DNA of 64,000 nt, taken from positions 3,660,501 through 3,724,500 of the forward strand of contig NZ_JAFV01000001.1 of NCBI RefSeq assembly GCF_000526315.1, in the 5' to 3' direction. Below, one piece after another: positions 10,623 to 47,595 of the stretch (position 1 is the stretch's first letter; every line of letters starts with the position of its first letter). The position numbers and the translations under genes were made by a program. Source of the DNA: Methylopila sp. 73B (lineage in GTDB: Bacteria > Pseudomonadota > Alphaproteobacteria > Rhizobiales > Methylopilaceae). The notes under the pieces were generated by a model. The model ran no database searches. It was not told where the DNA came from and saw only the letters and a list, made by a program, of their open reading frames with translations.

Positions 10623-10627
10623 GACGC

Positions 10628-14909: not shown

Positions 14910-14950
14910 CGGCCTTCCCCCCTCCCCTCGCGGGAAGGATGCCGTTCCTT

Positions 14951-15090
14951 CCCTTCTCCCCTTGCGGGAGAAGGTGGCAGGCGAAGCCGGTCGGATGAGG
15001 GGTCGTCCTGGCCATCCGCGACGGCGAAGACGAGCCTCGCCCTGAAACGACCCCTCACCCTTACCCTCTCCCGCAAGGGGAGAGGGGGGC
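14951..15090. repeat. Palindromic intergenic repeat element
   Basis: Two hairpins with near-identical stems bracket this element: CCTTCTCCC/GGGAGAAGG at 14952-14974 with a CTTGC loop, and CCCTCTCCC/GGGAGAGGG at 15064-15086 with a GCAAG loop. The flanking sequences (GATGAGGGG ... CCCCTCACCC) are themselves inverted copies, so the whole element is one long imperfect palindrome. Repeats of this look are widespread between genes in Hyphomicrobiales. It fills most of the 314-bp gap between the cyclase and amidase genes and may act as a bidirectional terminator. Confidence 0.75.
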
Positions 15091-15223
15091 TTCGACGGCG
15101 TGTCAGATTCATACCGCCTGCCTGGCTCTAGCGTCGGCTCTCAAAACCAAATGCGGTCGTTTTCCTCGTGACGCGGAAGGGCGACGCAGCGCCAGACCGA
15201 AACTCTCCTCCGGAGAACCGCCG

Positions 15224-23914: not shown

Positions 23915-23967
23915 GGGATTTTTGGCGCACCCGAGAGGATTCGAACCTCTGACCTCTGCCTTCGGAG
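23915..23967. repeat. Left attachment site of the genomic island
   Basis: A 53-bp segment identical to 47511-47563. It holds the 3' half of tRNA-Arg, from the anticodon loop through the T arm and acceptor end, plus a few bases downstream. Here the 5' half of the tRNA is absent, so this is the displaced 3' end created when an element integrated into the tRNA gene. Confidence 0.9.
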
Positions 23968-24063: not shown

Positions 24064-24085
24064 TGTGTGGGACGTTGTGTGGGAC
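24064..24085. repeat. Tandem TGTGTGGGAC repeats, left end (possible integrase arm sites)
   Basis: Two exact TGTGTGGGAC copies with a 12-base period lie about 100 bases inside the left attachment repeat and just before the integrase gene. The same motif occurs twice inside the right end (47441-47463, 13-base period). Short direct repeats at both ends of a tyrosine-integrase element are typical of arm-type binding sites; binding is inferred. Confidence 0.5.
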
Positions 24086-24094
24086 GGGCGGGCC

Positions 24095-25366
24095 GTGGCG
24101 ACGATTATCGATACTCCTTCGAAGCGGGCCAAGCTCGCGCCGCGGAGAAACCCGTACTGGCAAGGGATCTCCGGAGGACGAGGGGGCGTCTCCCTCGGCT
24201 ATCGTCGCGCGGTCAAAGGTTTCGGAACCTGGGTGGCGAAAGTCGTTTTGGACGGCCGGCGTCTGGAGGAGAGTCTCGCGGTCGCTGACGACGATGGCGC
24301 GCCCGCCGAGGCGCTGACCTACCGTGCCGCGGTCGCGGCGGCGCTGGAGTGGAGCCGTCGGCAAACCGAAGCGCTCGAACGCCGTGGCGACGACGGAGCG
24401 CCTGAGCCGACGGTCGCCTCGGCGATCGCCGAGTACCTCGGTGCGCGAGAGCGGCAAACCGTGTCTGGAAAGATCGCGCGCGGTCGCATGACAAATCATG
24501 TCCTCGCGGACGTCGCGTTTGCAGCCACGAAGCTGAGCCAACTTCGGTCGTCTACGATCGAGGCCTGGCGCGGACGTCTGGCCGTGCGTGATGAGGACGA
24601 TGAGCCCACGGTGGGACAGATGGCGCCGGCGACGCTTAACCGTCTGTTGACGGACCTGCGGGCCGCCTTGAACGCCGCCGCCGAACGCTATCGACGCGAA
24701 CTCCCCGCCCATTTGCCGCTCGAGATCAAGGTCGGGACCCGCGCCATCTCGGTCCAAACCGTCGCTCGGAAGCAATTGCTTACGGACGACGAGGTGCGGC
24801 GCCTCGTGGACGCCGCGTTCGGCGTCGATGACGATTTCGGGATGCTGGCGATCGTCGCTGCCGCCACTGGCGCGCGGTTCTCGCAGATCGCCGCGCTCCG
24901 CGTCCGCGACGTCCAGGCTGCTCGTGGGCGGGTGATGATGCCCGGCTCCCGCAAGGGGAGATCGCGATCGGCCAAGGCGGCCGTCGCCGTGCCGCTGTCC
25001 TCAGCCGTCCTGGCTCGCTTGGCGCCCGCGCTTGAGGGCCGCCGCGGCGATGAGCCTCTCCTGACGCGATGGGCCTACAAGCGCGCGGAACGGCTGAAGT
25101 GGGAGCGAGATAGGCGCGTGCCCTGGGGAGCGGCTTACGAGATCGAGCGGCCTTGGTCGGCAACGGTCGCCGCGGCAGAGCTGCCCGGAACGATCATGTA
25201 CGCGTTTCGCCACAGCTCCATTGTGCGCGGACTGGCTGCTGGCCTGCCGGTCCGCCTCGTCGCGGCGCTTCACGACACGAGCTCAGATATGATCGAGGCG
25301 CACTATGCGGCCCACATTGTCGACGCCACCGAAGAGATCGCGAGGCGCGTCGCGCTAGTTGCTTAG
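24095..25366 (+). CDS. int: Tyrosine-type integrase of the tRNA-Arg island
   Basis: A 423-residue site-specific recombinase. After an N-terminal arm-binding region comes a SAM-like core-binding domain (about 110-220) and the catalytic domain. The first arginine lies in ATGARFSQIAALRVRDV, the second basic box is YAFRHSSIVRG (Tyr replaces the usual first His), and the nucleophile tyrosine is in MIEAHYAAHI. The GTG at 24095 gives a natural MATIIDTPSKRAKL start; an earlier GTG at 24065 would translate the tandem repeats. It lies immediately inside the left attachment site and is the obvious enzyme for integration and excision of the 23.6-kb island. Confidence 0.92.
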   Translation: MATIIDTPSKRAKLAPRRNPYWQGISGGRGGVSLGYRRAVKGFGTWVAKVVLDGRRLEESLAVADDDGAPAEALTYRAAVAAALEWSRRQTEALERRGDDGAPEPTVASAIAEYLGARERQTVSGKIARGRMTNHVLADVAFAATKLSQLRSSTIEAWRGRLAVRDEDDEPTVGQMAPATLNRLLTDLRAALNAAAERYRRELPAHLPLEIKVGTRAISVQTVARKQLLTDDEVRRLVDAAFGVDDDFGMLAIVAAATGARFSQIAALRVRDVQAARGRVMMPGSRKGRSRSAKAAVAVPLSSAVLARLAPALEGRRGDEPLLTRWAYKRAERLKWERDRRVPWGAAYEIERPWSATVAAAELPGTIMYAFRHSSIVRGLAAGLPVRLVAALHDTSSDMIEAHYAAHIVDATEEIARRVALVA

Positions 25367-26741: not shown

Positions 26742-26838
26742 CCGGACCGACTGTGCGCGCCCTGGCAAACGCCAACCCCTAAACGAAAAGCCGCCGCACC
26801 CGGACCAAGAGTGCGACGGCCAATTCAGAGCATCGACA

Positions 26839-29385
26839 ATGCAGAGTATAGATCCTGGCCCTGATTTGGGCAATACGTCCGCCCCGCCAACCGGCTTCAA
26901 CGGTCCGCCTCGGCTTGCGGGCGATACTCTTGTTGCGATCTCAATCGTCGAGGCCGACGATCACTGTGCGCCGCCCGCGAAGACTTTCGGCGTCGTCGCC
27001 GGCGAGCCGCGCGTCGTTCAGCACGGACAGCAGCCGTCGCGCGGGACGATCCGCCGACTTGAGCTCACCGGCTTGCCGACCCGGGCCCTGGAGGAGTTGG
27101 CGGACGTTCTCCGCAGCATGCCGAGCCGCCAGGCGATCGCCTGCGCGCCGCCGCCTGCGGGGCGCGACGTCTGGCGCTTCACCACGAAGCGGGATCTCGC
27201 CACGCTCGGCGCAGAGGCCCCGGCCGACGCTATCGCGCGGACGGCGGACTTCCTGAAGGTCCCAGGCGGGCTGGCGTTGATCGGGCTGGACGTGGACGCG
27301 AAGGGCTGGCCTAGCGAGCTCCGCGACAAGGTCCAGACCAACGGCGGTTTGTCGAAGGTGCTCGCGACCGTCGCGCCAGCTTTTCGTGGGGCCGCCTGCT
27401 TGCTGCGGGCTTCGTCATCGGCCGGCGTGCGCGTCGGGGATAGCGGACCGCCGACCAGCGCCGAGGCCGGACAGCACCGCTTCCTGATCGCCGCGGATGG
27501 CGCGGACGCCGGACGGTTCATCGACGCCCTCTGCGCCCGCCTCGTGCTCGCGGGCTATGGCTTCGCGTTCGTCTCTCAGGCCGGCCACGTCGAGGTCCGG
27601 ACGCTCGTCGATCGCGCGGCGACCGGCGAGCTCTCCCGGCTGTGGTTCGAAGGCGCCGCGATCCTTGGAGATCGCGAGCTCCAGTTCGCGCCGGGCGTTC
27701 GGGATCCGAAGGTCGTCAGCGGCGGCCTGCTCGACACGTACGCTGTGCTCGATCTCGACGGCACCGAGGCCGATCAGTTCGTCGCGATTGAAGCCGGGAT
27801 CCGGCGCGCCGCGGAGCCCCACGCCCGAGCCGTTCGTGAGCGCTGGCGCGAGAAGCGGATCGCCGAATTGGTCGCCGCCGGAAAATCCCGAGAGCGAGCC
27901 GCCAAGCTCGTCGGGGCGCTGTCCGAGACGCACGTCCTGCTCGCCGAGCATGAGCTGACGTTCGACGACGGATCGACGGCCACAGTCCGCGAGATCATGG
28001 ACCATCCGAAGGCGTTCCACCGCGCCACGATGCCGGACCCGCTGGAGCCCGAGTACGGCCGCGGCGAGAACCTGGCGATCATCTACACCGACTGCACGCC
28101 TCCAAGGATCCACAGCCAGGCGCACGGCGGCATTGTCTACACGTTCGATCTGGCGTCCGTGTTTTTCGAAACAGAGGAGGATCGCACGGAGGCGGCGCAG
28201 GCTGCACCGGCTGAGCGATTTGAACCGCTGTTTCCGGAAGGGCCGGCAGAGCCCGACGAGCGCTTTACCTTCACGATGTTCGAGGAAGCCGCGGCCACCG
28301 CGCTCGCGTCGTCGGCCCGTCCGCTGATCAAGGGCCTGCTCGATCAGGGCGCGATGTCCGTGCTGTACGGGGAGAGCAACAGCGGCAAGACCTTCGTGGC
28401 GATGGACATCAGCCACCACGTCGCGGCGGGCGTGACCTGGAATGGCCTGCGGACCACGCGCGCTTCAGTCGTCTACGTCGCCGCCGAGGGCGGCCAAGGC
28501 GCTCGCAAACGCGCCGCGGCGCTGAAGGCGAAGTCCAAAGGCGCCGACGTCGACGGTTTTCGTTTTCTGCTGCACTCGGTGAACCTGCTGCGCGCGGACG
28601 CCGATCTTGGGCCTTTGATCGCAGGCCTGCGGCGTATCGGGCCAGTGGGCTTGGTCGTGATCGACACATTCTCCCGCGCTATGGCCGGCGGCGACGAGAA
28701 CGCTTCGACGGACATGGGTGCGATGGTCCGCCATCTTGACGCGATCCGGGCGGCTACCGGCGCGCATCTGATGGTCGTGCACCACACGGGCAAGGACAAA
28801 GCCAAGGGCGCCCGAGGTCATACGCTGCTGCGCGCGGCGACCGACACCGAGATCGAGATCGACGACCTCCGGCTGACGGTCACCAAGCAGCGCGACCTGG
28901 ACAAGTCGTTCGCCGCGGCGTTCTCGCTCGAGGTCGTCACTCTCGGCGTGGACGGTGAAGGCGATCCCATCACGTCCTGCACCGTCAGGTGGACGGCTGC
29001 GGCCTCGCCTACTCCAAAGCGGAGCGCGGCGAACGATCAGAACCAGAAGATCGCGGCCGCCGTGCTGGACGTGCTTGGCCTGGACCGGACGGGTGTGCTC
29101 GGAGATCTGTGGAACGAGATCGGGAAGAAGCTCGCGGACGCCAGCATATGCAAGGCGACGAGCCGGAACCGGATCACTGATCTGGTTAAAATCACCCTCG
29201 CTGGCCATGGCGTTTGTGTCGAGCGGGGTGGGCAGACGGTCATTGTCCGCGTCCGTCAGGACGGGATCGGCCGCACGGCGCCTTGGATCGTTGAAGCCGA
29301 GGAACGGACATCCTGTCCGAATAATCCGGCAGCTTCGAGCAGCGAAGAACTTCACGAGCTTCACCGCGGGAGTGTTTTCGGATGA
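26839..29385 (+). CDS. RepA/primase-helicase-like AAA ATPase
   Basis: An 848-residue protein. The C-terminal half is a RecA-fold ATPase of the RepA hexameric-helicase type: Walker A GESNSGKTF (511-519), AEGGQGARKR, Walker B LVVIDTFSRAM (605-615), then VVHHTGKDKAKGARGHTLLRAATD (646-669). The N-terminal half has LIGLDVDAKG (147-156) and LDLDGTE-like acidic strands that may be a primase-type domain; this is tentative. The C-terminal 100 residues resemble a winged helix. Such proteins replicate phages, plasmids and integrative elements. The following 260 bases carry iteron-like repeats. I chose the ATG at 26839 because similarity does not extend upstream. Confidence 0.8.
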   Translation: MQSIDPGPDLGNTSAPPTGFNGPPRLAGDTLVAISIVEADDHCAPPAKTFGVVAGEPRVVQHGQQPSRGTIRRLELTGLPTRALEELADVLRSMPSRQAIACAPPPAGRDVWRFTTKRDLATLGAEAPADAIARTADFLKVPGGLALIGLDVDAKGWPSELRDKVQTNGGLSKVLATVAPAFRGAACLLRASSSAGVRVGDSGPPTSAEAGQHRFLIAADGADAGRFIDALCARLVLAGYGFAFVSQAGHVEVRTLVDRAATGELSRLWFEGAAILGDRELQFAPGVRDPKVVSGGLLDTYAVLDLDGTEADQFVAIEAGIRRAAEPHARAVRERWREKRIAELVAAGKSRERAAKLVGALSETHVLLAEHELTFDDGSTATVREIMDHPKAFHRATMPDPLEPEYGRGENLAIIYTDCTPPRIHSQAHGGIVYTFDLASVFFETEEDRTEAAQAAPAERFEPLFPEGPAEPDERFTFTMFEEAAATALASSARPLIKGLLDQGAMSVLYGESNSGKTFVAMDISHHVAAGVTWNGLRTTRASVVYVAAEGGQGARKRAAALKAKSKGADVDGFRFLLHSVNLLRADADLGPLIAGLRRIGPVGLVVIDTFSRAMAGGDENASTDMGAMVRHLDAIRAATGAHLMVVHHTGKDKAKGARGHTLLRAATDTEIEIDDLRLTVTKQRDLDKSFAAAFSLEVVTLGVDGEGDPITSCTVRWTAAASPTPKRSAANDQNQKIAAAVLDVLGLDRTGVLGDLWNEIGKKLADASICKATSRNRITDLVKITLAGHGVCVERGGQTVIVRVRQDGIGRTAPWIVEAEERTSCPNNPAASSSEELHELHRGSVFG

Positions 29386-31388: not shown

Positions 31389-32072
31389 TCAACTGACGCT
31401 GGCCGTCGCCGCCACGACGCGCTGAACCTGCACAGCGGACCATGAGCCGCAGCCGGTGGCGGTCGGGATCCCGCGCGCGGTCAGCTCCCTCGCGACGGCG
31501 CCCAAGCTCGTCGCTCCGTTTGCCCTCAGGTCCGCGATGATCGGCGCCAGGTCGGCCGCGCGGCGCTTGGCGGCCTCGGCCTTGGCTTTCGCGGCGGCCA
31601 AGCGGTGCTCGTCAGTGGGAGGCCGGCCGCGGTCGCCGCCGAGTATCTGCCCACGCGCCTTTGCGGCCGCCAACGCCTCTTTCGTGCGCCTTGAGATCGC
31701 CTCGCGTTCTTCCTGCGCGACAACGGCGAGGATGCCGACGGTCATGCTGTTCGCATCCGGCATGTCCGCGGCGACGAATTTCACGCCGCTGTCCCGGAGC
31801 GTGAGCAGGAACGCCGCGTTCCGGCTCAGGCGATCCAGCTTCGCGACGACCAGGGTCGCGCGGTGGAGGCGAGCGGCGGCCAGCGCCTGAGCCAACTGAG
31901 GCCGGTCCGCGCGCTTGCCGCTCTCGACCTCGGTAAACTCGCCGACGATCCGCCAGCCTCCGCCGTTCAGGTAGCGGTGGACGGCAGCTCGTTGAGCTTC
32001 GAGCCCGAGGCCAGACGCCCCCTGCTTGGCCGTCGAGACGCGGAAATAGGCGATGAAAGCGCCTTCGGCCAT
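31389..32072 (-). CDS. Serine recombinase (resolvase/invertase family)
   Basis: A 227-residue small serine recombinase. The nucleophile Ser13 lies in AYFRVSTAKQG. Further conserved parts are GLGLEAQRAAV, the EFTEVESGKRADRPQLAQAL region, KLDRLSRNAAFLLTL, FVAADMPDANSMTVGILAVVAQEEREAISRRTKEAL (the dimer-forming E helix), and a C-terminal helix-turn-helix region (SLGAVARELTARGIPTATGCG-like). Length is normal for resolvases/invertases. A 40-bp perfect dyad with a 2-bp centre begins three bases before its start codon. It may resolve dimers of the element or invert or excise a DNA segment. Confidence 0.92.
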   Translation of the reverse strand: MAEGAFIAYFRVSTAKQGASGLGLEAQRAAVHRYLNGGGWRIVGEFTEVESGKRADRPQLAQALAAARLHRATLVVAKLDRLSRNAAFLLTLRDSGVKFVAADMPDANSMTVGILAVVAQEEREAISRRTKEALAAAKARGQILGGDRGRPPTDEHRLAAAKAKAEAAKRRAADLAPIIADLRANGATSLGAVARELTARGIPTATGCGSWSAVQVQRVVAATASVS

Positions 32073-33588: not shown

Positions 33589-34893
33589 ATGGCAATCCGG
33601 CAGTACGACCCGACGATCGGCCAGCATATCCGCAGCGTGGCCGGCCTCTTCGCGCCTCCGAGCCCGACCGAACAGGCGGCCTACGCTATGGCGAAGGCGA
33701 AAAAGGAGGAAGCCGAGCGCCTAGCCGAGCTCCACGCCGCTGGTAGGACGCCGTCCGAGCGTGCCGCGCTGACGGGCGTTCAAGGCTACGGGCAGACGCC
33801 GCAGGGCTTCACCTACAACGTGGACACCGATGCCGCGACCGCGCGCCGCGGCCAAGATCTGACTGCGGGCAGTTCACGCTATGCGACGGACGTCGGCGCC
33901 CGCACGTCGATCACGAACAACCGACTGGACAATCAGCGTGCCACGGTAACGAACCTCTACGGTCCGCTCGACGCCGGCCAGGTGGCGCCGGCCGTACCCG
34001 ACCGCTTTCTGGAAGCGCTCGGCTTCGGTGGCGGCGGGATCGCGGAGCGCTTGGGCGCGCTGAAGCCCATGTCCGAAACGGAAGCCAAGGCGCAGATCCT
34101 GCGCGCGCTCTCGCTTCAGCAGCAGGCGGACGCGGTTCTCGGCGCGGAGACCCCTGTCCAGGCGATGGGCCCAGACGGGCGTGCGACTTTCATGTCGCCC
34201 GGCGCGGCGGTGCGCACCGGCGCCCAGCCGGCGGCGGACATGACGAAAATCGGCGAACAGGCCAAGGGGCTTCGCGGCGAGATCGCGCAGCTGCCTTCGT
34301 ACAAAAACTACGCGCAGGCGGCCCCGATCTACCGATCGATGGTGGACACAGCAGGGACGAACTCGAAGGCCTCGGACCTCAATCTGGTGTATGGCCTGGG
34401 CAAGATCATGGACCCGACGTCCGTCGTGCGCGAAGGCGAGATGGTGCTGGTCCAGAACACTGCGTCGCTGCCGGATTGGGTCGTCGGCGCCGCGAACCGC
34501 CTGAACGGCGGCGCGGCCCTTCAGCCTGAGACGCGAGCCGCCTTGCTCGCGGAGGCGCATTCACGCATGCGGTCGTACGAAGACGTCCTGGGAGCCGATC
34601 TCGACCGTTATGGCGGGATCGCCGACCGTGCCGGCGTCCGACGCGACGACGTGCTGCCGCCTTTCGAGCGGTCGAACGCCTACCGAGGCGGCGGCAGGCA
34701 AGCCGCGCCGACGTTTCCCGGCGCGCCCGCGCAGGGCGGCCAGGAACCGCGGCCGCCGGCCGCTCCGTCACCTCCGGCGCCGCCGGCCATTCCCTCTGAC
34801 GCCGTCCGCGTGAGGACGCCCGAAGAGGCGTTCGCGCTACCGCCCGGCACGAAGTTCGTCACGCCCGACGGGCGTCTGAAGGTCCGCCCGTGA
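33589..34893 (+). CDS. Phage virion/ejection-like protein
   Basis: A 434-residue protein. The segment ASDLNLVYGLGKIMDPTSVVREGEMV (261-286) with following TASLPDWVVGAANRLNGG is a conserved signature of large internal or ejection proteins of podoviruses. There it occurs in tail-tube or DNA-ejection components that also tend to end in proline-rich linkers. Here the C-terminus (350-410) is Pro/Ala/Gly-rich and ends with the TPEEAFALPPGTKFVTPDGR motif typical of phage proteins that close with a short beta motif. It overlaps the next gene. No capsid, portal or terminase gene lies beside it in this island, so its role is uncertain. Confidence 0.6.
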   Translation: MAIRQYDPTIGQHIRSVAGLFAPPSPTEQAAYAMAKAKKEEAERLAELHAAGRTPSERAALTGVQGYGQTPQGFTYNVDTDAATARRGQDLTAGSSRYATDVGARTSITNNRLDNQRATVTNLYGPLDAGQVAPAVPDRFLEALGFGGGGIAERLGALKPMSETEAKAQILRALSLQQQADAVLGAETPVQAMGPDGRATFMSPGAAVRTGAQPAADMTKIGEQAKGLRGEIAQLPSYKNYAQAAPIYRSMVDTAGTNSKASDLNLVYGLGKIMDPTSVVREGEMVLVQNTASLPDWVVGAANRLNGGAALQPETRAALLAEAHSRMRSYEDVLGADLDRYGGIADRAGVRRDDVLPPFERSNAYRGGGRQAAPTFPGAPAQGGQEPRPPAAPSPPAPPAIPSDAVRVRTPEEAFALPPGTKFVTPDGRLKVRP

Positions 34894-36890
34894 TGGCCGC
34901 CGACGCATGGGATCGCTTCCCCGACGCTTCCCCGTCTGCGGATCCGTTCGACGCGTTCCCCGACGCGGGCGCTTCTCCGCGGCCGTCCAGCCTGCCCGGC
35001 GACGTCGCGAAGTCCGCGGCGGCCGGCGTCGCGGACGGCGTCCTGTCGTTCGGCGGATCGATCGGCGACGTGAACACGCTTGCGGGCCGCGGCCTGGCAT
35101 GGGGCCTTGAGAAGCTCGCGGGCGCCGACCCGTCGCCGCAGCAGCGCGAAGCGATCGACGCCGTTCGCGGCGGGCCGTTGGCGCTCCTACACCCGAAGAC
35201 GACGGCAGACCTTAAGAGGCCCGTTGAGGCTGTCACCGGCCCCTTCCACAAACCCGAGACGACGGCCGGCGAGTACGCCCGGACGATCGGCGAATTTGCG
35301 CCCTCGGCAGCGCTTGGCTCAGGGCGGCTTGGCGCGCGCATCGTCGGTGACGTGCTGATCCCCGCCGTCGCTTCTGAGACCGCCGGCCAAGTTACGGAAG
35401 GCACCGCCGCCGAGCCGTTCGCCCGCGCCGCCGGCGCGCTCGGCGGGAACCTCGCCGTCGCCGGCGCCCGCGCGGTGGCCGGCGCGCCGACCTCCGTCGC
35501 GGCCCGCGCCGCCCGCGCCGTTGATCCAGGCCAGTTCGACGAGGCTCAGCGCCTCGCGGAGACCGCGCGCCGCGTCGGCGTGCCGCTCAGCGGGCCCGAG
35601 GCGATTGGCGAGGCGACCCGCGGCGGGTCGAAGCTCGCGGACGTGCAGCGAACGGTGGAGGGCTCGCTGGCGGGCGGCACGACGACGTCGCGCTTCTTCT
35701 CGCAGCGGCCGCAGCAGGTCGACGCGGCGACGCGCCAGGTGCTCGACGCCATCGCGCCGGCGCCGGCCGCGCCGTCCACCCTCGGGCCCCGCGCCGCGCA
35801 GGCGGCCGAGGTCGCGCTCGACGACGTCCGCCGCGGCATCAACACGGCGACGCGGCCGGCCTACGCCGCGGCCGAGGCGCACGCGCTCGACCCGGCGGAC
35901 TTCGAACCGATCGCCCGCGACCCGGCGTTCGCGGCGTCGCTCAGGCGGCTGCGCGCCGACGAGGTGCTCGGGCCGCAGTTCGAAGGCCAGCCCGACAACT
36001 CGATCGCCGTCATCGACGCGGTCACGAAGGACATGCGCGACCGCGGTGTCGCGCTGGCGAACTCCGCGAACCCTGGTTTCTCAGGCCTCAAGTCCGCCGC
36101 GTACAGCAGCGGCGCCACCGAGGCGCGGGACATCGCGCGCGCCCCGGCGCGCGGCGGCGTGCAGGCCTACGACGATGCCCTCACGATGCAGTCGCAGGCG
36201 CGCCGTCAAAACCTCGAGCCGCTAGAGCAGGGGCCGCTCGGCCGCATCGCGACCGCGGCCGACACGCCGGCGGCTTACGGCGAGATCCTGCCGACCAAGC
36301 CGCTGGCCGGCGGGGTGGACGAGATCACCGACGCCGTGCGCCGTCTTCGCGGCCAGGACGCCGAGCTCCCGCCATCGCTGGTTCGCCAGAGCCTCGCTGA
36401 CGGGTTCGATCAGGCCAGCCGCCGCATCGCGACCGGCGACAATCAGAGCGTGGGCGGGCGCTTCGCCAACGCCGTGGCCGGGACGCCCGAGCAGCGCGCG
36501 ACGTTGGACGCCGTGCTGGAGGCGCTCGGTTTGCCAGAGGCCCGGCAGCAGACGAACGATCTGCTGGACGTCCTCCGCGCCACCAGCCAGCGCCGCCCGA
36601 TGGGTAGCCCGACAGACGCGAACCGGCAGATCAACGAACGGCTCGATCAGGTCGCGATGCCCGTCGCGATCGCGGCGTCGCCTGCAAGTGCGGGATCGTC
36701 GGTGTTCTCGGAGATCCGGGACCGTGTGCGTCAGGCCGCGCAGGACCGGGCGCACAGCGAGCTCGCGGAGCTGTTTACGGCGCCGGATAGCGTCCAGCTC
36801 ATCCGCGAACTTGCGGCCCGGCGCGACGCCAGCCCGCTCGCGGCGATGTTCGCCCGGCAGGCGCTTCAAACGCAGGCTGGTCGAGAGTAG
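34893..36890 (+). CDS. Large phage internal-virion-like protein
   Basis: A 665-residue protein (the ATG at 34893; a GTG codon directly before it could also serve). It opens with a repeated DAWDRFPDASPSADPFDAFPDA segment, as in many phage ejection proteins that begin with DPF/DAF repeats. An amphipathic Ala/Gly-rich helical region (35-210, with VADGVLSFGGSIGDVNTLAGRGLAWGLEKL) could insert in membranes, and a long helical remainder follows. It follows and overlaps the gene carrying the SVVREGE motif. The pair resembles the ejectosome module of podoviruses, here separated from other virion genes. Confidence 0.6.
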   Translation: MAADAWDRFPDASPSADPFDAFPDAGASPRPSSLPGDVAKSAAAGVADGVLSFGGSIGDVNTLAGRGLAWGLEKLAGADPSPQQREAIDAVRGGPLALLHPKTTADLKRPVEAVTGPFHKPETTAGEYARTIGEFAPSAALGSGRLGARIVGDVLIPAVASETAGQVTEGTAAEPFARAAGALGGNLAVAGARAVAGAPTSVAARAARAVDPGQFDEAQRLAETARRVGVPLSGPEAIGEATRGGSKLADVQRTVEGSLAGGTTTSRFFSQRPQQVDAATRQVLDAIAPAPAAPSTLGPRAAQAAEVALDDVRRGINTATRPAYAAAEAHALDPADFEPIARDPAFAASLRRLRADEVLGPQFEGQPDNSIAVIDAVTKDMRDRGVALANSANPGFSGLKSAAYSSGATEARDIARAPARGGVQAYDDALTMQSQARRQNLEPLEQGPLGRIATAADTPAAYGEILPTKPLAGGVDEITDAVRRLRGQDAELPPSLVRQSLADGFDQASRRIATGDNQSVGGRFANAVAGTPEQRATLDAVLEALGLPEARQQTNDLLDVLRATSQRRPMGSPTDANRQINERLDQVAMPVAIAASPASAGSSVFSEIRDRVRQAAQDRAHSELAELFTAPDSVQLIRELAARRDASPLAAMFARQALQTQAGRE

Positions 36891-37201
36891 GCCTACTATT
36901 ACACAAGCCCAAGCAGCAACCGACCAGCGTCAATTACGGCGAGCCTAACCCGGCGCTGTGGCCGGAGGCGGGTCCCACGACTTCGCCCACCGCCTGACCT
37001 ATCGAATCTGCGTGACCTAGGCCACGGCCGGCATGGAGGGCATCAGCGCGCTTGTTCAAAGATCTTCAGCGCGACCGACTGCAGACCGAGGACGTCAGGC
37101 GCGCGCCGGCCGGTACGATCCCGCGCTTCTACGGGGCCGGCAAACGCAGCCGTTCTTTTTTGATCCGTTAAGTATCGTATTTTTCAGATTGACGCGTTTC
37201 G
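36891..37201. other. Intergenic region with possible coding remnant and promoter
   Basis: About 311 bases without a complete gene. One frame near 36910-36999 reads ...VNYGEPNPALWPEAGPTTSPTA and stops, which looks like the C-terminal end of a lost phage protein. The last 60 bases (37150-37200) are AT-rich and probably hold the promoter of the HTH-ietAS operon. Confidence 0.4.
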
Positions 37202-37567
37202 ATGGTGATGAAACAAAAGCCCATGCCTAAGGTCATTCCAGATTACGAACTCAAGACGCAGCTCGATCGCTTCATACGTGAGAACGGAGGGCTTTCCTGT
37301 GCCTCACGGCTGCTCGGGATCGGAAAATCGACGCTCGATCGCGCTTGTAAGAGGGGTTGTGTGACCGGAGAAACGGCGGTCCGCATTCGCGGCGCTCTGA
37401 AGGAGCATCCCTTGGAAAAGCGAAACAAAAAGGAACATTCTGGCGAAATAACGGAACGAGACCTTGTCTCGTTTGAGAAGGTGTTGCACGCTCTTATGGC
37501 AACAGCCTCGACACTTCGCGGCGGTCGGCTCGCAGAGCCACAGGCTGACAAGAGAAATCGGGCATGA
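37202..37567 (+). CDS. HTH regulator, first gene of the ietAS operon
   Basis: A 121-residue protein whose first 65 residues hold a helix-turn-helix of Cro/YdaS-like type: LKTQLDRFIRENGGLSCASRLLGIGKSTLDRACKRG, then ETAVRIRGALKEH. The remainder is charged and helical. Its stop overlaps the ATPase start by four bases (ATGA), so it is translationally coupled to the ietAS genes and probably autoregulates them through the AT-rich upstream region. A regulator placed this way is consistent with a tightly controlled, potentially toxic protease system. Confidence 0.7.
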   Translation: MVMKQKPMPKVIPDYELKTQLDRFIRENGGLSCASRLLGIGKSTLDRACKRGCVTGETAVRIRGALKEHPLEKRNKKEHSGEITERDLVSFEKVLHALMATASTLRGGRLAEPQADKRNRA

Positions 37568-38616
37568 GTCGAGGCGACCTCGTCCTGTCGTTGGCCGAAG
37601 CCGGCGCGTCCGGCGACCGCTCCATGGTCAAGCGGACCGTCAGGGCGCTGGCGGAAGAGGCCAAGGCGAAGCAGCAGCACACCTTCGCCAAACGGCTGGC
37701 CAACGTGATCGAAGCCGTCGGGGGCGCAGCCAGCTTGACCTTGTCGTCGCCGCGGCTGCCCGACAGCGTCGCCGGACTGCTGCATGAGATCGTCCCGCGA
37801 CGCCGCTTCGACGATCTGATCCTGTCGAAGGAGACCCGCGAAGACCTCGAGGAACTGCGTCAGGAGCACGAGAACGTCGAGCTGCTCTACGCGAACTCGC
37901 TTTCGCCCAGACATTCCGTGCTGCTGGTCGGCCCGCCCGGGAACGGCAAGACCTCGCTCGCCGAGGCGCTGGCGACCGAGCTCGGCCTGACCTTCTACGT
38001 CGTGCGCTACGAGGCGATCGTCGACAGCTTCCTAGGCGAGACGGCGTCCAAGCTGTCGGCGGTGATGGAGTACGTCGCCTCGACGCCGTGCGTGATCTTC
38101 TTCGACGAATTCGACGCCATCGGGAAGGAACGCGGCGACATCCACGAGACCGGCGAGATCAAGCGCGTCGTCAGCTCGCTGCTGATGCAGTTCGACAGCC
38201 TTCCGCCCCATGTGCTGCTGGTCTGCGCGACCAACCATCCCGAGCTGCTCGACCGCGCGGTGTGGCGACGTTTCGAGCTGCGCCTCGACATGCCCAATCC
38301 GACGCAGACGCAGCTTGCAACCTGGCTCAAAAGGGCGTTCCGCGACGCGCCCGCCGACTGCGCCAAGGAATTCCAAGGATTGGCCAAAAACTTCCGGGGA
38401 AAGAGTTTTTCCGAGATTGAACAGTTCGCGCTCGACGTGCAACGGAGGATTGTGCTGTCGGGCAAGAATGCGAGTTGGTCCGACGCGATTCGCCTCACTC
38501 TGAAGCGGTGGCAGAAGCGCTTCGAGCCATCGCAGGGTCATCGCAATGCCGACCGAAAGGCCAATCCTCAAGCTGCGTCGCTCGCAGGAAGCGAGGAGGA
38601 TTCCGGGAACGGCTGA
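37564..38616 (+). CDS. ietA: AAA+ ATPase, IetA-like
   Basis: A 350-residue AAA+ ATPase of the classic FtsH/katanin-like clade. Residues 1-75 form a helical N-terminal region; Walker A is GPPGNGKTS (123-131), Walker B VIFFDEFD (177-184), sensor 1 CATNHPE (221-227), arginine-finger region DRAVWRRFELRL (230-241), then a lid domain. It is followed by, and overlaps by 71 bases, a subtilisin-like protease gene. That pairing is the hallmark of IetAS, first described in Agrobacterium plasmid stability/incompatibility and later reported as an antiphage system. The assignment rests on gene pairing and domain order rather than on a sequence search. Confidence 0.85.
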   Translation: MSRGDLVLSLAEAGASGDRSMVKRTVRALAEEAKAKQQHTFAKRLANVIEAVGGAASLTLSSPRLPDSVAGLLHEIVPRRRFDDLILSKETREDLEELRQEHENVELLYANSLSPRHSVLLVGPPGNGKTSLAEALATELGLTFYVVRYEAIVDSFLGETASKLSAVMEYVASTPCVIFFDEFDAIGKERGDIHETGEIKRVVSSLLMQFDSLPPHVLLVCATNHPELLDRAVWRRFELRLDMPNPTQTQLATWLKRAFRDAPADCAKEFQGLAKNFRGKSFSEIEQFALDVQRRIVLSGKNASWSDAIRLTLKRWQKRFEPSQGHRNADRKANPQAASLAGSEEDSGNG

Positions 38617-41170
38617 TCGCCGCCCCCGGCCTCGCGCCACGCCCGCCGCGCAGGCCGCTAGGTTCGGAGACGCGTTCCAAGGCCTCAGGCGCACCCTCGA
38701 CGAGATCGAGGATGGCGTCGACATCGCCGCCGAACCGGACCGCGTCACTCCCGATCGGGTGCTGGTGCTGGAACTCGCCTACGGCGTCCAGAACTTCGCC
38801 AAGGAAGCCGCCCGCCTCGGGTTCACATGGCTTCTCGAGGAGGGCCTCGACGATGAGGAGCTGCCGGACGGCGAAGACTTTCCAGATGACGAAGACCTGC
38901 CGGATCCCGCCGCAGTCATTGACCGGCGCCTCTATGCACTGATGCCGTCGCGCCAGGCGCTGCGATCGCTGCTGGATCTGTGGGAGACCTTCACCGCAGG
39001 ACAGCCCGCGCCTTACGGCTTCGGCAAGTGGTGGCAGATCTTCGCCACTCTCGACACGGTGAGGCCCTGGGGGGCGCAGGACCGGATCGACCAGTGGACC
39101 CGGACGGTCCTGAGCGCCCAGATCGAGCAGCGCCCCGACAGCGCAGTCCGCATCGAGTTCGATCTGTGGTTTCGCGACGACGGCATCGTGCGGCGCGCCC
39201 GTCTCAACGCCTTCGAGGAGAAGGTCGAAGCCGTCGGCGGCCGGGTGCTCGATCGCGTCCTGATTTCGCCGATCCAGTATCACGCGGCCCTTGTCGAGCT
39301 GCCTGTCAGGCGCGCCCTCGAGCTGATCGCGCTCGCCGGGCCTCTGGCGAGCGCCGACGAGGTCATGGCGGTCAGGCCGCAGAGTTTCTCGCCGCATCCG
39401 CCAAACGAGCGCGATCCACTCGAGGCGGTGGATCGACGCCCGCCGGCGGAGGCCGACGCGCGGCCCGCGATCGCGGCGCTGCTCGACGGTTTCCCGGTCG
39501 AAAACCATGACCTCCTGCGCAACCGGATCGACGTCTATCCAGTCGACGTGACGCCGTCCGAGGCCCCGCCGGCCCGTCGCATGCACGGCACGCAGATGGC
39601 ATCGCTGATCCTTCACGGCGATCTCGACGGCGGCGCGCCGCCGCTTGACCGGACCCTTCTGGTCGTGCCGGTCCTGGCCTCTCCCGCGAACGGCTCCCCC
39701 GAGCACACCCCGACCGACAAGCTGGCGGTCGGGATGGTCGAGCGGGCCGTGCGCGCGTTGAAGGAGGGGCTCGGCGACGACGATCCTGTCGGACCGGACG
39801 TGGTCATCATCAACCATTCGATCGGCGACATGCACTCGCCGTTCGAGAAGCGTGCGAGCCACTGGAGCAGGCTGCTCGACCACCTGTCGCACACATATCG
39901 CGTGCTCTTCGTGATCAGCGCGGGAAACGTCCAGGACGGCGTCGCCATCGACGGCTTTTCCTCGCTCGACGAGTTCCGGCGCGCCAGTCCCGGAGCCCGC
40001 ACCGAAGCGATCCTGACGGCTCTGGAGCGCGCCCGCGCCACCCGTCCGATGCTTAGCCCGGCGCAGTCCTGCAACGGCCTGACCATCGGCGCCGTCCATA
40101 GCGACTTCGCCGGTCCCGCCGCGTTTACGGGCGCTGCGATCGATCCGTTCGGATCGTTGCGCATGACCAATCTGGGATCCCGGCTCGGCGCCGGCGTCAG
40201 CGGGTCCATTAAGCCGGACCTCGTGATGCCGGGGGGCCGGCAGGCGGCTCGCGCGCGGGTCACGCCGACCGCCTTCGAGATCTATTCCCAGGAGATCGAG
40301 GGCGCAGGCCAGCGAACGGCCATCCCCGACTTCCGTGGCGGCCGGCGCGACCGGACGCAGCGATCGAGCGGCACCAGCAATGCCGCCGCGCTTGCGACGC
40401 GCGACGCCATTCGCCTGGCCGACGCGCTCGACGAGATCGCGGCCATTCCAGGCGAATCCGGATGGCGCACCCGGCCGACGCGGGCGGTGATCCTGAAGTG
40501 CCTTCTTGCGCACGGCTGCTCGTGGGGCGACATCGGCCATCACCTCGACGGCCTTTATCCGCCGGCCGCGGCGACGTCGAAATACCGTCGCCGCGCGGCG
40601 ATCGCCCAGTTCCTCGGCTATGGCGAACCCGACGTCGACCGCGTCATCAACGGCGCGAGCCACCGCGTCACGATGCTCGCCGACGACGTGCTGCGGAACG
40701 GGCGCCGACACGAGTATCAGGTCCCGCTCCCGGACGCGCTGTCGTCACTCGCGCAGCTCAGGCGGATCACGGTGACGCTCGCCTGGAGCTCGCCCGTGCG
40801 GGTCAGCGCGGCCTCGCCCCGATCCATCCGGCTCGCGGTCACCGACCATCAGGGGCGGTCCCATTTCTGGGAGGGCGTCGACCGGACGAACGTCGTTCAG
40901 CCCGATCACCGCCATTGCGGCAAGGGCACGCTGTTCCATTCGGTGCTGGACGGAAGCCGGGCCATTCCGTTTGGACGGCGGTCGAGCTTCGTCATCGGCG
41001 TCCAGGCCCGCGCGGAGACAAGCGCCTTCAACCGCGTCGACGCGCCATACGCGCTTGCGGTCAGCTTCGAGACCGCCGACACGATCAGGGCCGACATCTA
41101 TCAGCAGATCCGACAGGAACTCGAACTGCGCACGCGAGCCATCGTTCGAGCCAGGACCAGGCGACCATGA
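38546..41170 (+). CDS. ietS: Subtilisin-like (S8) protease, IetS-like
   Basis: An 874-residue cytoplasmic subtilase with no signal peptide. Residues 1-300 form an accessory domain with an acidic patch (LLEEGLDDEELPDGEDF, 96-112). The catalytic triad is Asp314 (ALLDGFPVEN), His347 (RMHGTQMA) and Ser611 (SSGTSNAAA), with oxyanion Asn461 (VISAGN). The final 200 residues form a beta-rich domain (VTLAWSSPVRVSAASPRSIRLAV). The large size and coupling to an AAA+ ATPase match IetS. The likely mode is ATPase-controlled proteolysis of a host or phage target, inferred from the family. Its stop overlaps the next gene (ATGA), making a third effector-side gene. Confidence 0.87.
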   Translation: MPTERPILKLRRSQEARRIPGTADRRPRPRATPAAQAARFGDAFQGLRRTLDEIEDGVDIAAEPDRVTPDRVLVLELAYGVQNFAKEAARLGFTWLLEEGLDDEELPDGEDFPDDEDLPDPAAVIDRRLYALMPSRQALRSLLDLWETFTAGQPAPYGFGKWWQIFATLDTVRPWGAQDRIDQWTRTVLSAQIEQRPDSAVRIEFDLWFRDDGIVRRARLNAFEEKVEAVGGRVLDRVLISPIQYHAALVELPVRRALELIALAGPLASADEVMAVRPQSFSPHPPNERDPLEAVDRRPPAEADARPAIAALLDGFPVENHDLLRNRIDVYPVDVTPSEAPPARRMHGTQMASLILHGDLDGGAPPLDRTLLVVPVLASPANGSPEHTPTDKLAVGMVERAVRALKEGLGDDDPVGPDVVIINHSIGDMHSPFEKRASHWSRLLDHLSHTYRVLFVISAGNVQDGVAIDGFSSLDEFRRASPGARTEAILTALERARATRPMLSPAQSCNGLTIGAVHSDFAGPAAFTGAAIDPFGSLRMTNLGSRLGAGVSGSIKPDLVMPGGRQAARARVTPTAFEIYSQEIEGAGQRTAIPDFRGGRRDRTQRSSGTSNAAALATRDAIRLADALDEIAAIPGESGWRTRPTRAVILKCLLAHGCSWGDIGHHLDGLYPPAAATSKYRRRAAIAQFLGYGEPDVDRVINGASHRVTMLADDVLRNGRRHEYQVPLPDALSSLAQLRRITVTLAWSSPVRVSAASPRSIRLAVTDHQGRSHFWEGVDRTNVVQPDHRHCGKGTLFHSVLDGSRAIPFGRRSSFVIGVQARAETSAFNRVDAPYALAVSFETADTIRADIYQQIRQELELRTRAIVRARTRRP

Positions 41171-42054
41171 GTTTCAACGAGGACGACAGCCTCGGAGCCC
41201 AGTCTCCGCAGGCGATCATCGAGTATCTGCGCCTGATCGGCGACGATCGCCGGGCGGACGCGCTGACGCCCCAGGGCGGCGCTCCCCAGGCGTTCGGGTT
41301 CGGCGCCGACAAGCCTTACATGGGCACCAGCGCGATCCTGGGCTTCGTCGAGCACGCCCAAGGCGATCTTCTGCCGATCGTGCCGCTCGCCTCGATCACC
41401 GCAGACGAAACCTTGAGGGGCGCCACCATCAAGGTCACTCTCGACCGCTTCTTCGTCGAGGAGTTTCCAGGTCACGGCGAGCACAGGATCCTGTGCGAGT
41501 TCTCGGGCAAGAACCAGGTCCCCGGCGAAGTGGAGGCGCTGACTTTCACCGCCACCTGCAGGGCCAGGGACGGGCAGAGCGCGGGCGTCAACGGCCTGCC
41601 GATCTTCCTCGGTCTGAACGTCGGGGACAATGGCGTGAGCTTCGAGGGGCGAACGGTGAACGTGTCGAGCTCACGCGACAACCACATCCTCGAGGTTCTT
41701 GACACCGACACGTTCAAGCAGGGCCTGTCGCTGCTCACTCACGCGCAGCCCGCCATCAAGCCGTTTACGAAGCTCGCCGAAGGCATCGTCCGCATGGCCG
41801 CCAAGCGCAGTTGGAACCGGCAGGTCCACACGTTCTCGCTGGGCCTGGATTTTGACGGAAGCCCGACCTCGGCCAGGCTGAGGTGCGGATCGTTCGTGGT
41901 CGCCCAGGCGGCCAGGACCGGCGGCTGGGACTGGGCCAACTATGCCTGGGACACCCATGCTGGCGAGATCGTTCCGGTCCGCGACGCCCCGCCGATCGGC
42001 ATGAACTACATGGTCTTCGGCGTCTCGCGATACACGATCGGCGATCCGCGCTGA
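41167..42054 (+). CDS. Unknown protein translationally coupled to ietS
   Basis: A 295-residue protein starting in an ATGA overlap with the protease gene. It has no signal peptide or membrane helix. An N-terminal helical part (SPQAIIEYLRLIGDDRRADALTPQ) is followed by a beta-rich body (TIKVTLDRFFVEEFPGHGEHRILCEFSGKNQ; VNGLPIFLGLNVGDNGVSFEGRTVNVSSS). The C-terminus has many aromatic residues (GGWDWANYAWDTHAGEIVPV ... YMVFGVSRYTI). I do not recognise the family. The canonical ietAS pair has two genes, so this is either an accessory or regulatory subunit or a substrate. The unbroken chain of overlaps from the HTH gene onwards argues it works with them. Confidence 0.65.
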   Translation: MSFNEDDSLGAQSPQAIIEYLRLIGDDRRADALTPQGGAPQAFGFGADKPYMGTSAILGFVEHAQGDLLPIVPLASITADETLRGATIKVTLDRFFVEEFPGHGEHRILCEFSGKNQVPGEVEALTFTATCRARDGQSAGVNGLPIFLGLNVGDNGVSFEGRTVNVSSSRDNHILEVLDTDTFKQGLSLLTHAQPAIKPFTKLAEGIVRMAAKRSWNRQVHTFSLGLDFDGSPTSARLRCGSFVVAQAARTGGWDWANYAWDTHAGEIVPVRDAPPIGMNYMVFGVSRYTIGDPR

Positions 42055-42096
42055 CCGAACACCGCCTCACCGCACTGGCGCCGCTGGCTTGGGCCA

Positions 42097-42393: not shown

Positions 42394-42792
42394 AGGACGG
42401 TGCGCTGGACGAGGTCTCGCCGGCGACGGAGACTTACCAGATGGAGCTGCTGCGGAACGACGACGCCTAGTGCTCTGGGACCCAGGTCAGCGCAAGGTGA
42501 AGAGGGCCGCCGGTCGGCGGACCGGCCGCAAGTACATATACACCAAGTAGCTGCACAATTTCGAGAGCTTCAGGGGACGATCTAGATTACGCCCTCCAAT
42601 TCGACCAACGATCCCTTGGCACTTGAAAGATTTTTAGCCCCGCGCGTGAGCGTGCATTCTCCGCAGAAAATCGCCGTCAGCCCAGAAAAAACTCATTCAT
42701 CAAGAAATGGCTGGCGCGCTGTTTAATTGCGCGTCATTTTCGGGGCGCAGCTGACATATCGCCCAATGAGGGCGACGTTCGGGGGAACGCAG

Positions 42793-44283
42793 ATGACTGC
42801 CTTAGAGATTTTGCTCAATCAACCTATTGAATGGCGTAGTTGGGGTCAGGATGGCGCACTCGCGGCTGTTCTATTGGATCTTCAGGGAAACATCCTGAAG
42901 GGGCACGGACGCGATCACACTGCTAATATCTTTCTGCGTTTTGACGCCACCGACCCTCAAAAGGCGCGTAAATTCCTGCAAACACTGTCATTCTCTGTAA
43001 CGTCGGCGCTCGATCAGTTGCGCGCGGCTGAGGCGTTTGGGGAGACTGGGTTGAGCGGCGGCCGAGTGGTCTGCGTCATGCTCGCGCGCGGGGCCTATGA
43101 CAAGCTCGGCATTCCGGTCGAAGACATTCCAGACGACGTTGCGTTCCGCGCTGGTATGCGTCAGCGCGGCCAGTTGCCAAAGCTGACATTCAAGAACATC
43201 CCAGTCGAGTTCGATGGCATCAACGATCCACCGACGGCGGATTGGGAGACGGGCGGGGTCTGGGACCGCGAGGAACCGGACGCACTCGTCATCGTCGGCG
43301 ACGACGATGCGGCCAGCGTCCTCGCGAGCGTTGCCGCCTTGGAGGCGCTGGCGGGCCCGGCCGGCGTTGAGATCCTCGGCGTCGACATCGGTAAGGCGCA
43401 GCGCCGGATGCAGCCAGGAGGCGGTCGGAAGGGCGAGGGGCTTGAACATTTCGGCTATGTGGACGGCCGCAGTCAGCCCCTCTTCCTTAAGGAGGACATT
43501 GACGGGGAGGAAAAGGCGAACTGGAGCCCGGTCTTTAAGCCATCTCAGTTCATAGTGAAGGACCCAGCTCAGCCGAATGAGTTCTCATGCGGTAGTTACT
43601 TTGTCTATCGGAAGCTTGAGCAGAACGTCCTGAAGTTCAAACTCCAAGAAGAAGAGCTAGCCGCCGCGCTAGGGCTGACCGGCGACAACGAGGAGCGGGC
43701 AGGTGCGCTGGTCGTCGGCCGGTTCGAGAACGGCACGCCCGTCATCGTGAGCGGCAGTGAAATCGCCGCGGCGCCTCCGAACGACTTCAACTATTCCGGC
43801 GTCGACGAGGACAATCCAGACAAGACCCACTGTCCGTTTAAGTCCCATATTCGTAAGACCAATCCTCGGGGTCAGGATGAGGGCGAGCGCTCACGCATAA
43901 TGGCCCGCCGCGGGATCACTTATGGCGAGCGCGCCTACCGACCGGAGGGGGCTGACTTCCGGGAGACTGACCGGCCCACGGGTGGAGTTGGACTGCTCTT
44001 CATGGCCTACATGTCCGACATCAGTGAGCAATTCGAGTTTACGCAGGCAGCGTGGGCGGGGAACGTCAATTTCGAGAACGACGAGACTGGCATCGACGGT
44101 GTCATCGGACAGCGCGACAACCGACCCGGAACTCGCGATGTAAAATGGAAGGATGCCTATGCTGGTCTTGAGGCGGATTTCGACTTCAAGACAAGCGTCA
44201 GGCTAATGGGCGGTGAGTATTTCTTTGCGCCGTCGATCAGTTTTCTGCAAAACCTCGCCGCCGCGGCCCACGCCATGGCGTAG
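42793..44283 (+). CDS. Dye-decolorizing (Dyp-type) haem peroxidase
   Basis: A 496-residue Dyp-type peroxidase. The diagnostic GxxDG motif is GYVDG (221-225, with the distal Asp). The proximal haem ligand is His352 in KSHIRKTNPRG, followed by the conserved RIMARRGITYGER. The start at 42793 has a GGGGGAA ribosome site; a longer frame from 42727 is less likely. The protein is longer than bacterial A/B-type enzymes and fits the larger C/D-like class. There is no Tat or Sec signal and no encapsulin gene nearby. It is cargo of the island, lying between ietAS and the HEPN-like gene, and its physiological substrate is unknown. Confidence 0.88.
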   Translation: MTALEILLNQPIEWRSWGQDGALAAVLLDLQGNILKGHGRDHTANIFLRFDATDPQKARKFLQTLSFSVTSALDQLRAAEAFGETGLSGGRVVCVMLARGAYDKLGIPVEDIPDDVAFRAGMRQRGQLPKLTFKNIPVEFDGINDPPTADWETGGVWDREEPDALVIVGDDDAASVLASVAALEALAGPAGVEILGVDIGKAQRRMQPGGGRKGEGLEHFGYVDGRSQPLFLKEDIDGEEKANWSPVFKPSQFIVKDPAQPNEFSCGSYFVYRKLEQNVLKFKLQEEELAAALGLTGDNEERAGALVVGRFENGTPVIVSGSEIAAAPPNDFNYSGVDEDNPDKTHCPFKSHIRKTNPRGQDEGERSRIMARRGITYGERAYRPEGADFRETDRPTGGVGLLFMAYMSDISEQFEFTQAAWAGNVNFENDETGIDGVIGQRDNRPGTRDVKWKDAYAGLEADFDFKTSVRLMGGEYFFAPSISFLQNLAAAAHAMA

Positions 44284-44425: not shown

Positions 44426-45628
44426 TCAGTAATCCATGTTGACGTGGCGCTCCCACTCGTGGCTCCGAGCGCGGATAAATCGCTCCAGCTCATCATCGTC
44501 GCCGGCGATGGCCTTCGCGTACTCCGCGAGCGAGTTCGCGTCGAAGGAAGGGTCAATGCCAGCGTCCAGCAGCCGGTGCGGCCCTGTCAGATCTCCGACG
44601 CATAGCAGCTGGTCGAGCTCGTCGAACGTTGCGCAGCACTCCGTGTGATCGTCGGCTTCGATTGGTATGAACGAAAAACGGACGCTATCGCCGAACCGGG
44701 TGAAGTTGGCGGGGATCGCGCCAACGTTCGGCAGATGAAAGAAAATCGAACCCTTGTCGTTCTCGACACCACCATGTGCGAACGGATTTCGGATCCGTTC
44801 CTTGATGCGGCGCATCTTGCCGAGCAACAACTCGGCCTGTCGATCGCCGACCACGTTCAATACGGTCTTGAGCTTGGCATCCCAGCTTGCAGCGAGCAAT
44901 TGCGTCAGACTACCCGGCGGCAGGGGCGTTCCGTTGAATGCCCTTAATAATACCAGTCGGTGCTCCAGCGCGCTAAAATAAGCGTCCACCATCGCAGTCG
45001 AGTAGAAAAAGCCTTCGCTGTTGGCGCGGAACGTATGATTCAGTACGTCGGCGATCCCAAGGTTCAGTTCGCCATCCTCAGCTTTCTTGAGCTTCTTGCG
45101 CCGCGGCGGCTTGACCGCTTTGGCGTAAGACTTCTGCGCCTTCTCACGGAAAAACCGGTAGCGGCCGTCGAATTCTCCAAATCGGTTGACGATCGAAACG
45201 TTGCCGATCTCGACCTGGGCCTCGGCGTAGGGTTCAAGAAGCGCCTCAACCTCCTTTAAAGCGGCCTTCAGCTGCCCGACGATCCTCTGGGTTGGGACCT
45301 TTGCTTGCCCCGCCTGCAAGATCGTGAAGCCGAATTTCCGCAACTCGAAGACGACCGGCTCGCCGTTCACGCTGCCGTAGACGCTCCACCGGACCTTTTC
45401 GCCATGTCCGCGCCACTTCCAGCCCATGACGGTGCGCAAAAGGAAGAGGACCAGTTCGGGGACCGGGAATTCAGCGGACTTTAGGCGCCCTCCCAGCATC
45501 GACAATGGGTCTAACTCTTCGGGAAAATCCGCGGAAAATCCTACGAGGTTCTTGGCTACGCGACGCCGCACCGCATTGAGCGGATCGGACGAATTGGCGC
45601 CCCCTTTCGTACTCTGATTTCCGGACAT
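44426..45628 (-). CDS. Unknown protein with HEPN-like motif
   Basis: A 400-residue soluble protein that I cannot assign to a named family. In the C-terminal half, KMRRIKERIRNPFAHGGVE contains RNPFAH (280-285), which fits the HEPN ribonuclease consensus R-polar-x3-H, within a predicted helical region (about 205-290) as in HEPN domains. The N-terminal half mixes strands and helices and has a basic linker (KPPRRKKLKKAED, 173-185). Base composition is lower in GC than the backbone. It is convergent with the peroxidase. An RNase role in defence or stress is an inference from one motif and the island context. Confidence 0.6.
   Translation of the reverse strand: MSGNQSTKGGANSSDPLNAVRRRVAKNLVGFSADFPEELDPLSMLGGRLKSAEFPVPELVLFLLRTVMGWKWRGHGEKVRWSVYGSVNGEPVVFELRKFGFTILQAGQAKVPTQRIVGQLKAALKEVEALLEPYAEAQVEIGNVSIVNRFGEFDGRYRFFREKAQKSYAKAVKPPRRKKLKKAEDGELNLGIADVLNHTFRANSEGFFYSTAMVDAYFSALEHRLVLLRAFNGTPLPPGSLTQLLAASWDAKLKTVLNVVGDRQAELLLGKMRRIKERIRNPFAHGGVENDKGSIFFHLPNVGAIPANFTRFGDSVRFSFIPIEADDHTECCATFDELDQLLCVGDLTGPHRLLDAGIDPSFDANSLAEYAKAIAGDDDELERFIRARSHEWERHVNMDY

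Positions 45629-47510: not shown

Positions 47511-47595
<85 letters not shown>

Follow-up and report, generated by a model that had tools for sequence, protein, structure and literature searches.

Gene organization

The window, meaning the whole 64,000-nucleotide stretch of DNA from Methylopila sp. 73B that was analysed, contains four genes on the same strand at 37202-42054. A four-gene operon had been proposed in a sequence-only reading of this DNA, and that layout is what is found.

37202..37567, + strand: HTH-like gene, 121 aa
37564..38616, + strand: IetA, AAA+ ATPase, 350 aa (PADLOC PDLC04232, 2.1e-132; Pfam AAA, 9.4e-31; Walker motifs)
38546..41170, + strand: IetS, S8 subtilase, 874 aa (PADLOC PDLC04233, 1.6e-261; Pfam Peptidase_S8, 1.5e-17)
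41167..42054, + strand: third gene, 295-aa orphan-family protein

Neighbouring genes overlap by 4 bp between the HTH-like gene and ietA, by 71 bp between ietA and ietS (counted from the ietS ATG at 38546), and by 4 bp between ietS and the third gene. The ATGA overlaps described earlier are therefore present at the outer two junctions and not at the middle one. In relatives, ietA and ietS overlap by 35-128 bp in the seven of nine loci with a placeable start (L004 and L006 are without one). The spacing from ietS to the third gene ranges from -4 to +20 bp in the eight of nine loci where it can be placed (L007 being the ninth); a 4-bp overlap is present in the window, L002, L003 and L033. Genes locked together by ATGA are thus not a general rule.

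Comparison of the window with the Methylopila copy L002 gives dN 0.158 and dS 0.79 for the HTH-like gene, 0.061 and 0.68 for ietA, 0.138 and 1.09 for ietS, and 0.094 and 1.03 for the third gene. All four genes are under purifying selection. Scans of the DNA for sigma-70 promoters found 0 against 0.3 expected, and scans for terminators found 2 against 3.2 expected.

The HTH-like protein has a weak match to the repressor-type Pfam family Phage_CI_repr (E 0.16, below the cut-off) and is probably an autoregulator of the operon. Homologues are found in three Methylopila-type loci (L002, L003 and L037). The gene was not found in L004-L007, whose upstream flanks were checked; G272, G315 and G064 lay outside this check. 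The earlier idea of a coupled four-gene unit can be kept in part: the third gene is constant within one group of ietAS loci, but since the HTH-like gene is found in Methylopila-type copies only, the general unit has three genes.

The IetA and IetS pair

The pair had been taken for the two-gene ietAS system, and the PADLOC scores given above agree. The match to PDLC04233 spans residues 1-865 of the 874 residues of IetS, and ietA is directly followed by ietS, which is the ietAS gene order. Both Walker motifs named in the earlier reading are in place in IetA, GPPGNGKTS at residue 123 and VIFFDEFD at 177. An alignment of 30 IetS sequences likewise bears out the proposed Asp314/His347/Ser611 triad of IetS, with Asn461 as the oxyanion Asn. 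His347, Asn461 and Ser611 are kept in all 30; Asp314 is kept in 29, the remaining sequence having a gap there. Against the NCBIfam equivalogs IteA and IteS the window proteins score 224.1 and 47.8 bits, where the cut-offs of 510 and 900 are set for a narrower group. Judged by these profiles, the pair is ietAS in PADLOC's wide sense and lies below the narrow NCBIfam equivalog level.

An orphan family behind ietS

The third protein was said to resemble nothing known. Searches of Pfam, PADLOC, NCBIfam, PHROGs and PDB sequences lead to the same result, with nothing better than E 0.2; they used the window protein together with an eight-member alignment, A1, except for NCBIfam, where the window protein was the only query. 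By sequence, it belongs to an undescribed orphan family. The possibility that it is a copy of the C-terminal domain of IetS was rejected (hhalign probability 0.1 of 100).

Its predicted structure is poor. The first AlphaFold model has a mean pLDDT of 48.5 and a pTM of 0.50, and a second, with another family member first, is worse (33.8 and 0.21). The first, though weak, is rich in strands, and helices come after its middle part. With this pLDDT-48.5 model, a Foldseek search of the PDB found nothing that reached E 0.001. Many of the best 50 of 750 matches to this weak model are C2-domain or C2-containing proteins, among them Aida (the best of these, E 0.013), phospholipase C, otoferlin and Itch. 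The C2 likeness, coming from such a model, is to be treated as a lead and not as a result.

A Foldseek match of the same weak model to an uncharacterised Hokovirus protein (BFVD A0A1V0SF49; E 5.6e-5, TM 0.45) was also observed.

Near-homologues of the third protein can be found at four loci in a genome contig collection, scanned with exact peptides of the window protein and hence for near kin only. They are also found on two plasmids, in 7 of 397 genomes of the order (the own genome included) and in 3 of 398 genomes of the phylum, all three already among the known loci. The genome sets of order, phylum and class are samples. Together these make up 11 distinct loci: the window, L002-L007, G272, G315, G064 and a truncated copy in G363. 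For this count G034 was assumed to be L002 and G076 to be L003, given identical profile scores and frame lengths; L004 and L006 are 97% alike. In all 11 the third gene lies directly behind ietS. The survey of co-occurrence suggested earlier has thus turned up no full-length homologue away from ietAS.

Two wider origins were considered and rejected. A phage origin was dropped for lack of a match in 50,697 phage records and of a confirmed one in viral contigs, where two pattern scans matched 31 and 50 stretches. A wider family within the class was dropped after a search of 385 genomes gave ten matches at E 0.5 or better, of which the own genome alone was convincing and the other nine had E 0.072 or worse.

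The third gene among ietAS loci

Most of the IetS-bearing records found do without the third gene. It is carried by 2 of 82 plasmid records that match IetS (59 of these matches cover at least 80% of the query), and two more divergent third-protein queries added no plasmid record with the gene beside ietS. In the ten of the other 80 records whose annotation was read, an unrelated gene, a gene on the opposite strand or nothing annotated stands behind ietS; in L023 nothing is annotated up to the end of the record. In the order, 50 of 397 genomes match the IetS model, mostly weakly, and not all of them need be ietAS. Ten genomes score above 700 bits; six of these have the third gene (G000, G034, G076, G315, G272 and G064) and four are without it by a profile check of the flanks (G260, which is the top scorer, G156, G097 and G073).

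A tree was built from 30 selected IetS rows: the window, 13 strong-match loci, 10 other plasmid loci and 6 distant ones, without the decayed copy in G363 and the remaining weak matches. All ten IetS with a third gene fall on one side of a single branch (support 97/96); calling them a clade rests on the midpoint root. A single change accounts for the presence of the third gene in 98% of the 200 bootstrap trees, and none of 500 shuffles gives a number as low. The tree suggests that the gene was gained once. The group extends beyond Alphaproteobacteria to Undibacterium, a betaproteobacterium. Identities of IetS and of the third protein are correlated over 36 pairs of nine loci (r 0.96), although the pairs are not independent and near-copies inflate the value. 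Among the compared IetS that lack a third gene, the 14 nearest share 30-37% identity with the window IetS.

A third gene shared by other ietAS clades was considered and rejected, because the genes that follow IetS in L015, L017 and L034 are not convincingly similar to each other or to the third gene. In L034, an unrelated open frame of 369 aa (334-1440, - strand) lies directly behind an IetS without a third gene, and is perhaps another clade-specific companion. In L019, a plasmid of Paracoccus sp. SCSIO 75233, the stretch 3016-9403 has ietAS next to a ubiquitin-like gene set, with annotations for a ThiF adenylyltransferase, a multiubiquitin-domain protein and a DUF6527 protein.

Broken copies

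Two damaged loci bear on which genes depend on each other, each as a single case. L007, an Undibacterium plasmid, has a broken third gene next to IetA and IetS frames that run through without interruption. The record annotates a shorter IetS, and the break could be a sequencing error. In the decayed copy of G363, the front part of which is L037, the frames of the HTH-like protein and IetA are uninterrupted and both IetS and the third gene are broken; the assembly is given as 88% complete. Since these two are the broken ones there, the third gene appears to have decayed with the protease. Because the L007 pair is uninterrupted beside a broken third gene, the third protein is probably not the antidote, and IetS can apparently be restrained without it. 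Nor does it seem to be required for the core function, since most of the IetS-bearing records found lack a third gene.

A cassette within a probable integrated element

The borders of the unit can be seen by alignment with other Methylopila copies, and the surroundings contain further features of a mobile element.

23915..23967, strand not assigned: left 53-bp direct repeat, probable attachment site, exact copy of 47511-47563
24065..25366, + strand: probable tyrosine integrase (Pfam Phage_integrase, E 1.2e-4, with 22.3 bits against a curated cut-off of 27.1)
26380-29385, strand not given: primase-helicase-like gene
31389-32072, - strand: resolvase-like gene
37150..42066, + strand: cassette, alignable by blastn with the Methylopila copies L002, L003 and L037 (about 78-79% nucleotide identity)
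47511..47563, strand not assigned: right copy of the 53-bp repeat, in which the 3' end of tRNA-Arg(ccg) lies
47519-47595, - strand: tRNA-Arg(ccg)

By blastn, L002 matches the window in a single block at 37152-42066 and L003 in a single block at 37150-42054, both at 78-79%. The alignment of L037 also begins at 37152, and none of the three has another blastn match anywhere in the window. The shared stretch begins about 50 bp ahead of the HTH-like gene and stops where the third gene ends, and its surroundings are unrelated; the leader before the HTH-like gene is conserved in all four copies. Outside the unit, L002 and L003 share one separate patch of 0.66 kb at 71%. In a tblastx comparison of the flanks, isolated matches of 7-72 residues turned up, and for some of them the summed E-values were very low; these matches were taken as noise of coding composition because blastn gave one block. 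Since the Methylopila alignments stop at the operon borders, the operon seems to move as a cassette.

The integrase gene lies just inside the left repeat. From this arrangement, the 23.6 kb between the repeats are read as a putative integrated element with the cassette as cargo.

Other genes of the neighbourhood were observed. One matches the phage family phrog_13634 (33589-34893; 1.3e-14), to which no function is assigned. It is followed by a gene directly before the cassette for a 666-aa protein (34890-36890) with no Pfam or PHROG match. Just behind the cassette, past its border but still within the element, lies a gene like those of DyP-type peroxidases (42727-44283; TIGR01413, 5.3e-23, with 81.8 bits against a cut-off of 100.5). 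A 400-aa protein at 44426-45628 (- strand) has no family at threshold and a weak Csm6-HEPN similarity (E 0.3).

A cyanobacterial relative beside a caspase

A distant relative of the third protein can be found outside ietAS. Two divergent family members, used as tblastn queries, matched three cyanobacterial plasmids that are almost identical to each other (E 5e-7 and 0.03), and a reverse search from the 178-aa cyanobacterial protein returned the third proteins of Undibacterium (6e-11) and Rhizobium (4e-9). The A1 profile, built without the cyanobacterial protein, matches it in two colinear blocks: the C-terminal block scores 64.6 bits (model 205-289) and the N-terminal block a weak 6.1 bits. 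When residues 40-80 of the window protein serve as a sub-profile for the N-terminal part, the score is 12.1 bits, and the highest among 1000 shuffles is 4.3. No match is obtained with the middle of the third protein (74-200; -4.3 bits). The shared blocks therefore cover a short N-terminal stretch of about residues 49-66 and residues of about 205-289, and the relative is without some 125 middle residues. It has no Pfam match.

Downstream of the relative, the next gene encodes a protein with a caspase domain (Peptidase_C14, 3.1e-17), whose C-terminus matches EAD10 at 20.0 bits where the Pfam cut-off is 24.1. The gene after that encodes an EAD10-FGS protein (EAD10, 4.3e-29). The plasmid has no IetS match. 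The linkage to a caspase is that of one lineage, the three near-identical plasmids. A search for the C-terminal domain in 398 Pseudomonadota genomes found the three known ones alone, and no EACC1 match was seen in the third protein or its relative in the Pfam copy used, which may or may not include an EACC1 model.

The same family beside a caspase suggests that unrelated bacterial death proteases may share a partner. The third protein and its short relative might then form a portable family of death-protease partners common to ietAS and EAD systems, in which a common core engages the protease or is cut by it and an exchangeable middle senses the invader or kills. This extension is doubtful as it stands.

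Possible functions of the third protein

The operon in the window is best read as a mobile unit of ietAS type and a distinct three-gene subtype, with the third protein as a sensor or adaptor on the protease side; a probability of roughly 0.4 is given to this reading. By analogy with SgiAT and IetAS, the free IetS protease would be toxic and would be restrained by the AAA+ protein IetA. The window copy is likewise presumed to act in defence. The toxin would be IetS here and the antitoxin IetA because, in E. coli, the homologous protease of Salmonella genomic island 1 (SGI1) is toxic by itself, taking effect within 30 min, and is neutralised by the ATPase (PMC5006074). The HTH-like protein probably controls the operon in Methylopila-type copies. 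The third protein may join an invader signal or a substrate to IetS; recognition would then fall to its middle part, and its shared N- and C-terminal core would touch the protease machinery. With AlphaFold models this poor, neither a sensor nor an adaptor has the backing of a fold.

Bacterial gasdermins are cut by a neighbouring protease. The third protein could similarly be an effector, which IetS (or the cyanobacterial caspase) cleaves and which then harms the cell. This would fit with family members adjoining two unrelated kinds of protease and with the joint decay of the third gene and IetS in G363, and the strand-rich pattern with helices after the middle in the weak model would allow it. 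No gasdermin is seen among the three PDB sequence matches at E 10 or better (a search that would miss distant folds) or in the best 50 of 750 Foldseek matches to the weak model, and the SGI1 protease, toxic alone (PMC5006074), needs no downstream effector for its toxicity; an effector role is judged rather unlikely. An antidote or inhibitor that restrains IetS with or in place of IetA might be expected directly behind the protease, where the gene stands in 11 of 11 loci, with a 4-bp overlap in four of them. Such a role is the least probable of those considered, given the uninterrupted IetA and IetS frames next to the broken third gene of L007, the many IetS-bearing records without the gene, the intact IetA beside the broken IetS and third gene of G363, and the neutralisation of the SGI1 protease by an IetA-type ATPase alone (PMC5006074, accessible part). 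A sensor, adaptor or substrate is the better reading of the two.

The third gene may also be a passenger of one successful lineage with no role in the ietAS mechanism, for example with a separate accessory function. Its rarity (2 of 82 IetS-bearing plasmid records), the unrelated genes behind IetS in other ietAS, and the Undibacterium copy with a broken third gene and an unbroken pair are all consistent with this. Against it, the gene is under purifying selection, lies inside the cassette border, occurs behind ietS in Alphaproteobacteria as well as in Undibacterium, and was not found in full length apart from ietS in the searches made. A passenger is accordingly considered unlikely, and the sensor or adaptor reading is preferred. 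A subtype with a dedicated partner protein would offer a handle on what starts the IetS protease.

Relation to known systems

The locus has in common with ietAS (PADLOC PDLC04232/PDLC04233; pTiC58) an AAA+ ATPase gene followed by an S8 protease gene in one operon. What sets it apart is the additional gene conserved behind ietS, together with the HTH-like gene that precedes ietA in Methylopila-type copies. Genes of ietAS are found on plasmids too, while the window copy is in a tRNA-integrated element. The mechanism of IetAS is given as unknown in the accessible part of a 2025 paper (PMC11878078).

SgiAT of SGI1 shares the order of ATPase antitoxin and subtilisin-like toxin and the location in an integrated mobile element. 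In contrast to the window, it has two genes, 20 bp apart, and no third gene is mentioned in the accessible part of its description (PMC5006074). The same part states that the whole SGI1 operon with its own promoter gave no post-segregational killing.

The earlier expectation of novelty holds within the literature covered: neither a three-gene ietAS nor a variant with this component was found, including in the accessible parts of PMC11878078, PMC5006074, PMC9927553, PMC7159879 and PMC8195603, with subscription titles mostly outside this scope. What is new is the conserved extra gene behind ietS and the family link to a neighbour of a caspase; two-gene ietAS is already known.

Pairs of bacterial gasdermin and protease are alike in having a protease gene beside a partner that is possibly cut, and differ in that no gasdermin is among the PDB sequence matches of the third protein.

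A further likeness is to EAD/caspase conflict systems (PMC7159879 and PMC8195603), in that the short relative precedes a caspase gene and an EAD10-FGS gene. The relative differs from the third protein by the missing middle of about 125 residues; it has no Pfam match and no IetS match on its plasmid. In the cyanobacterial plasmid record L066, the stretch 7770-16291 takes in the relative, the caspase, the EAD10-FGS gene and, beyond these, annotations for a GUN4-domain protein and a MoxR family ATPase.
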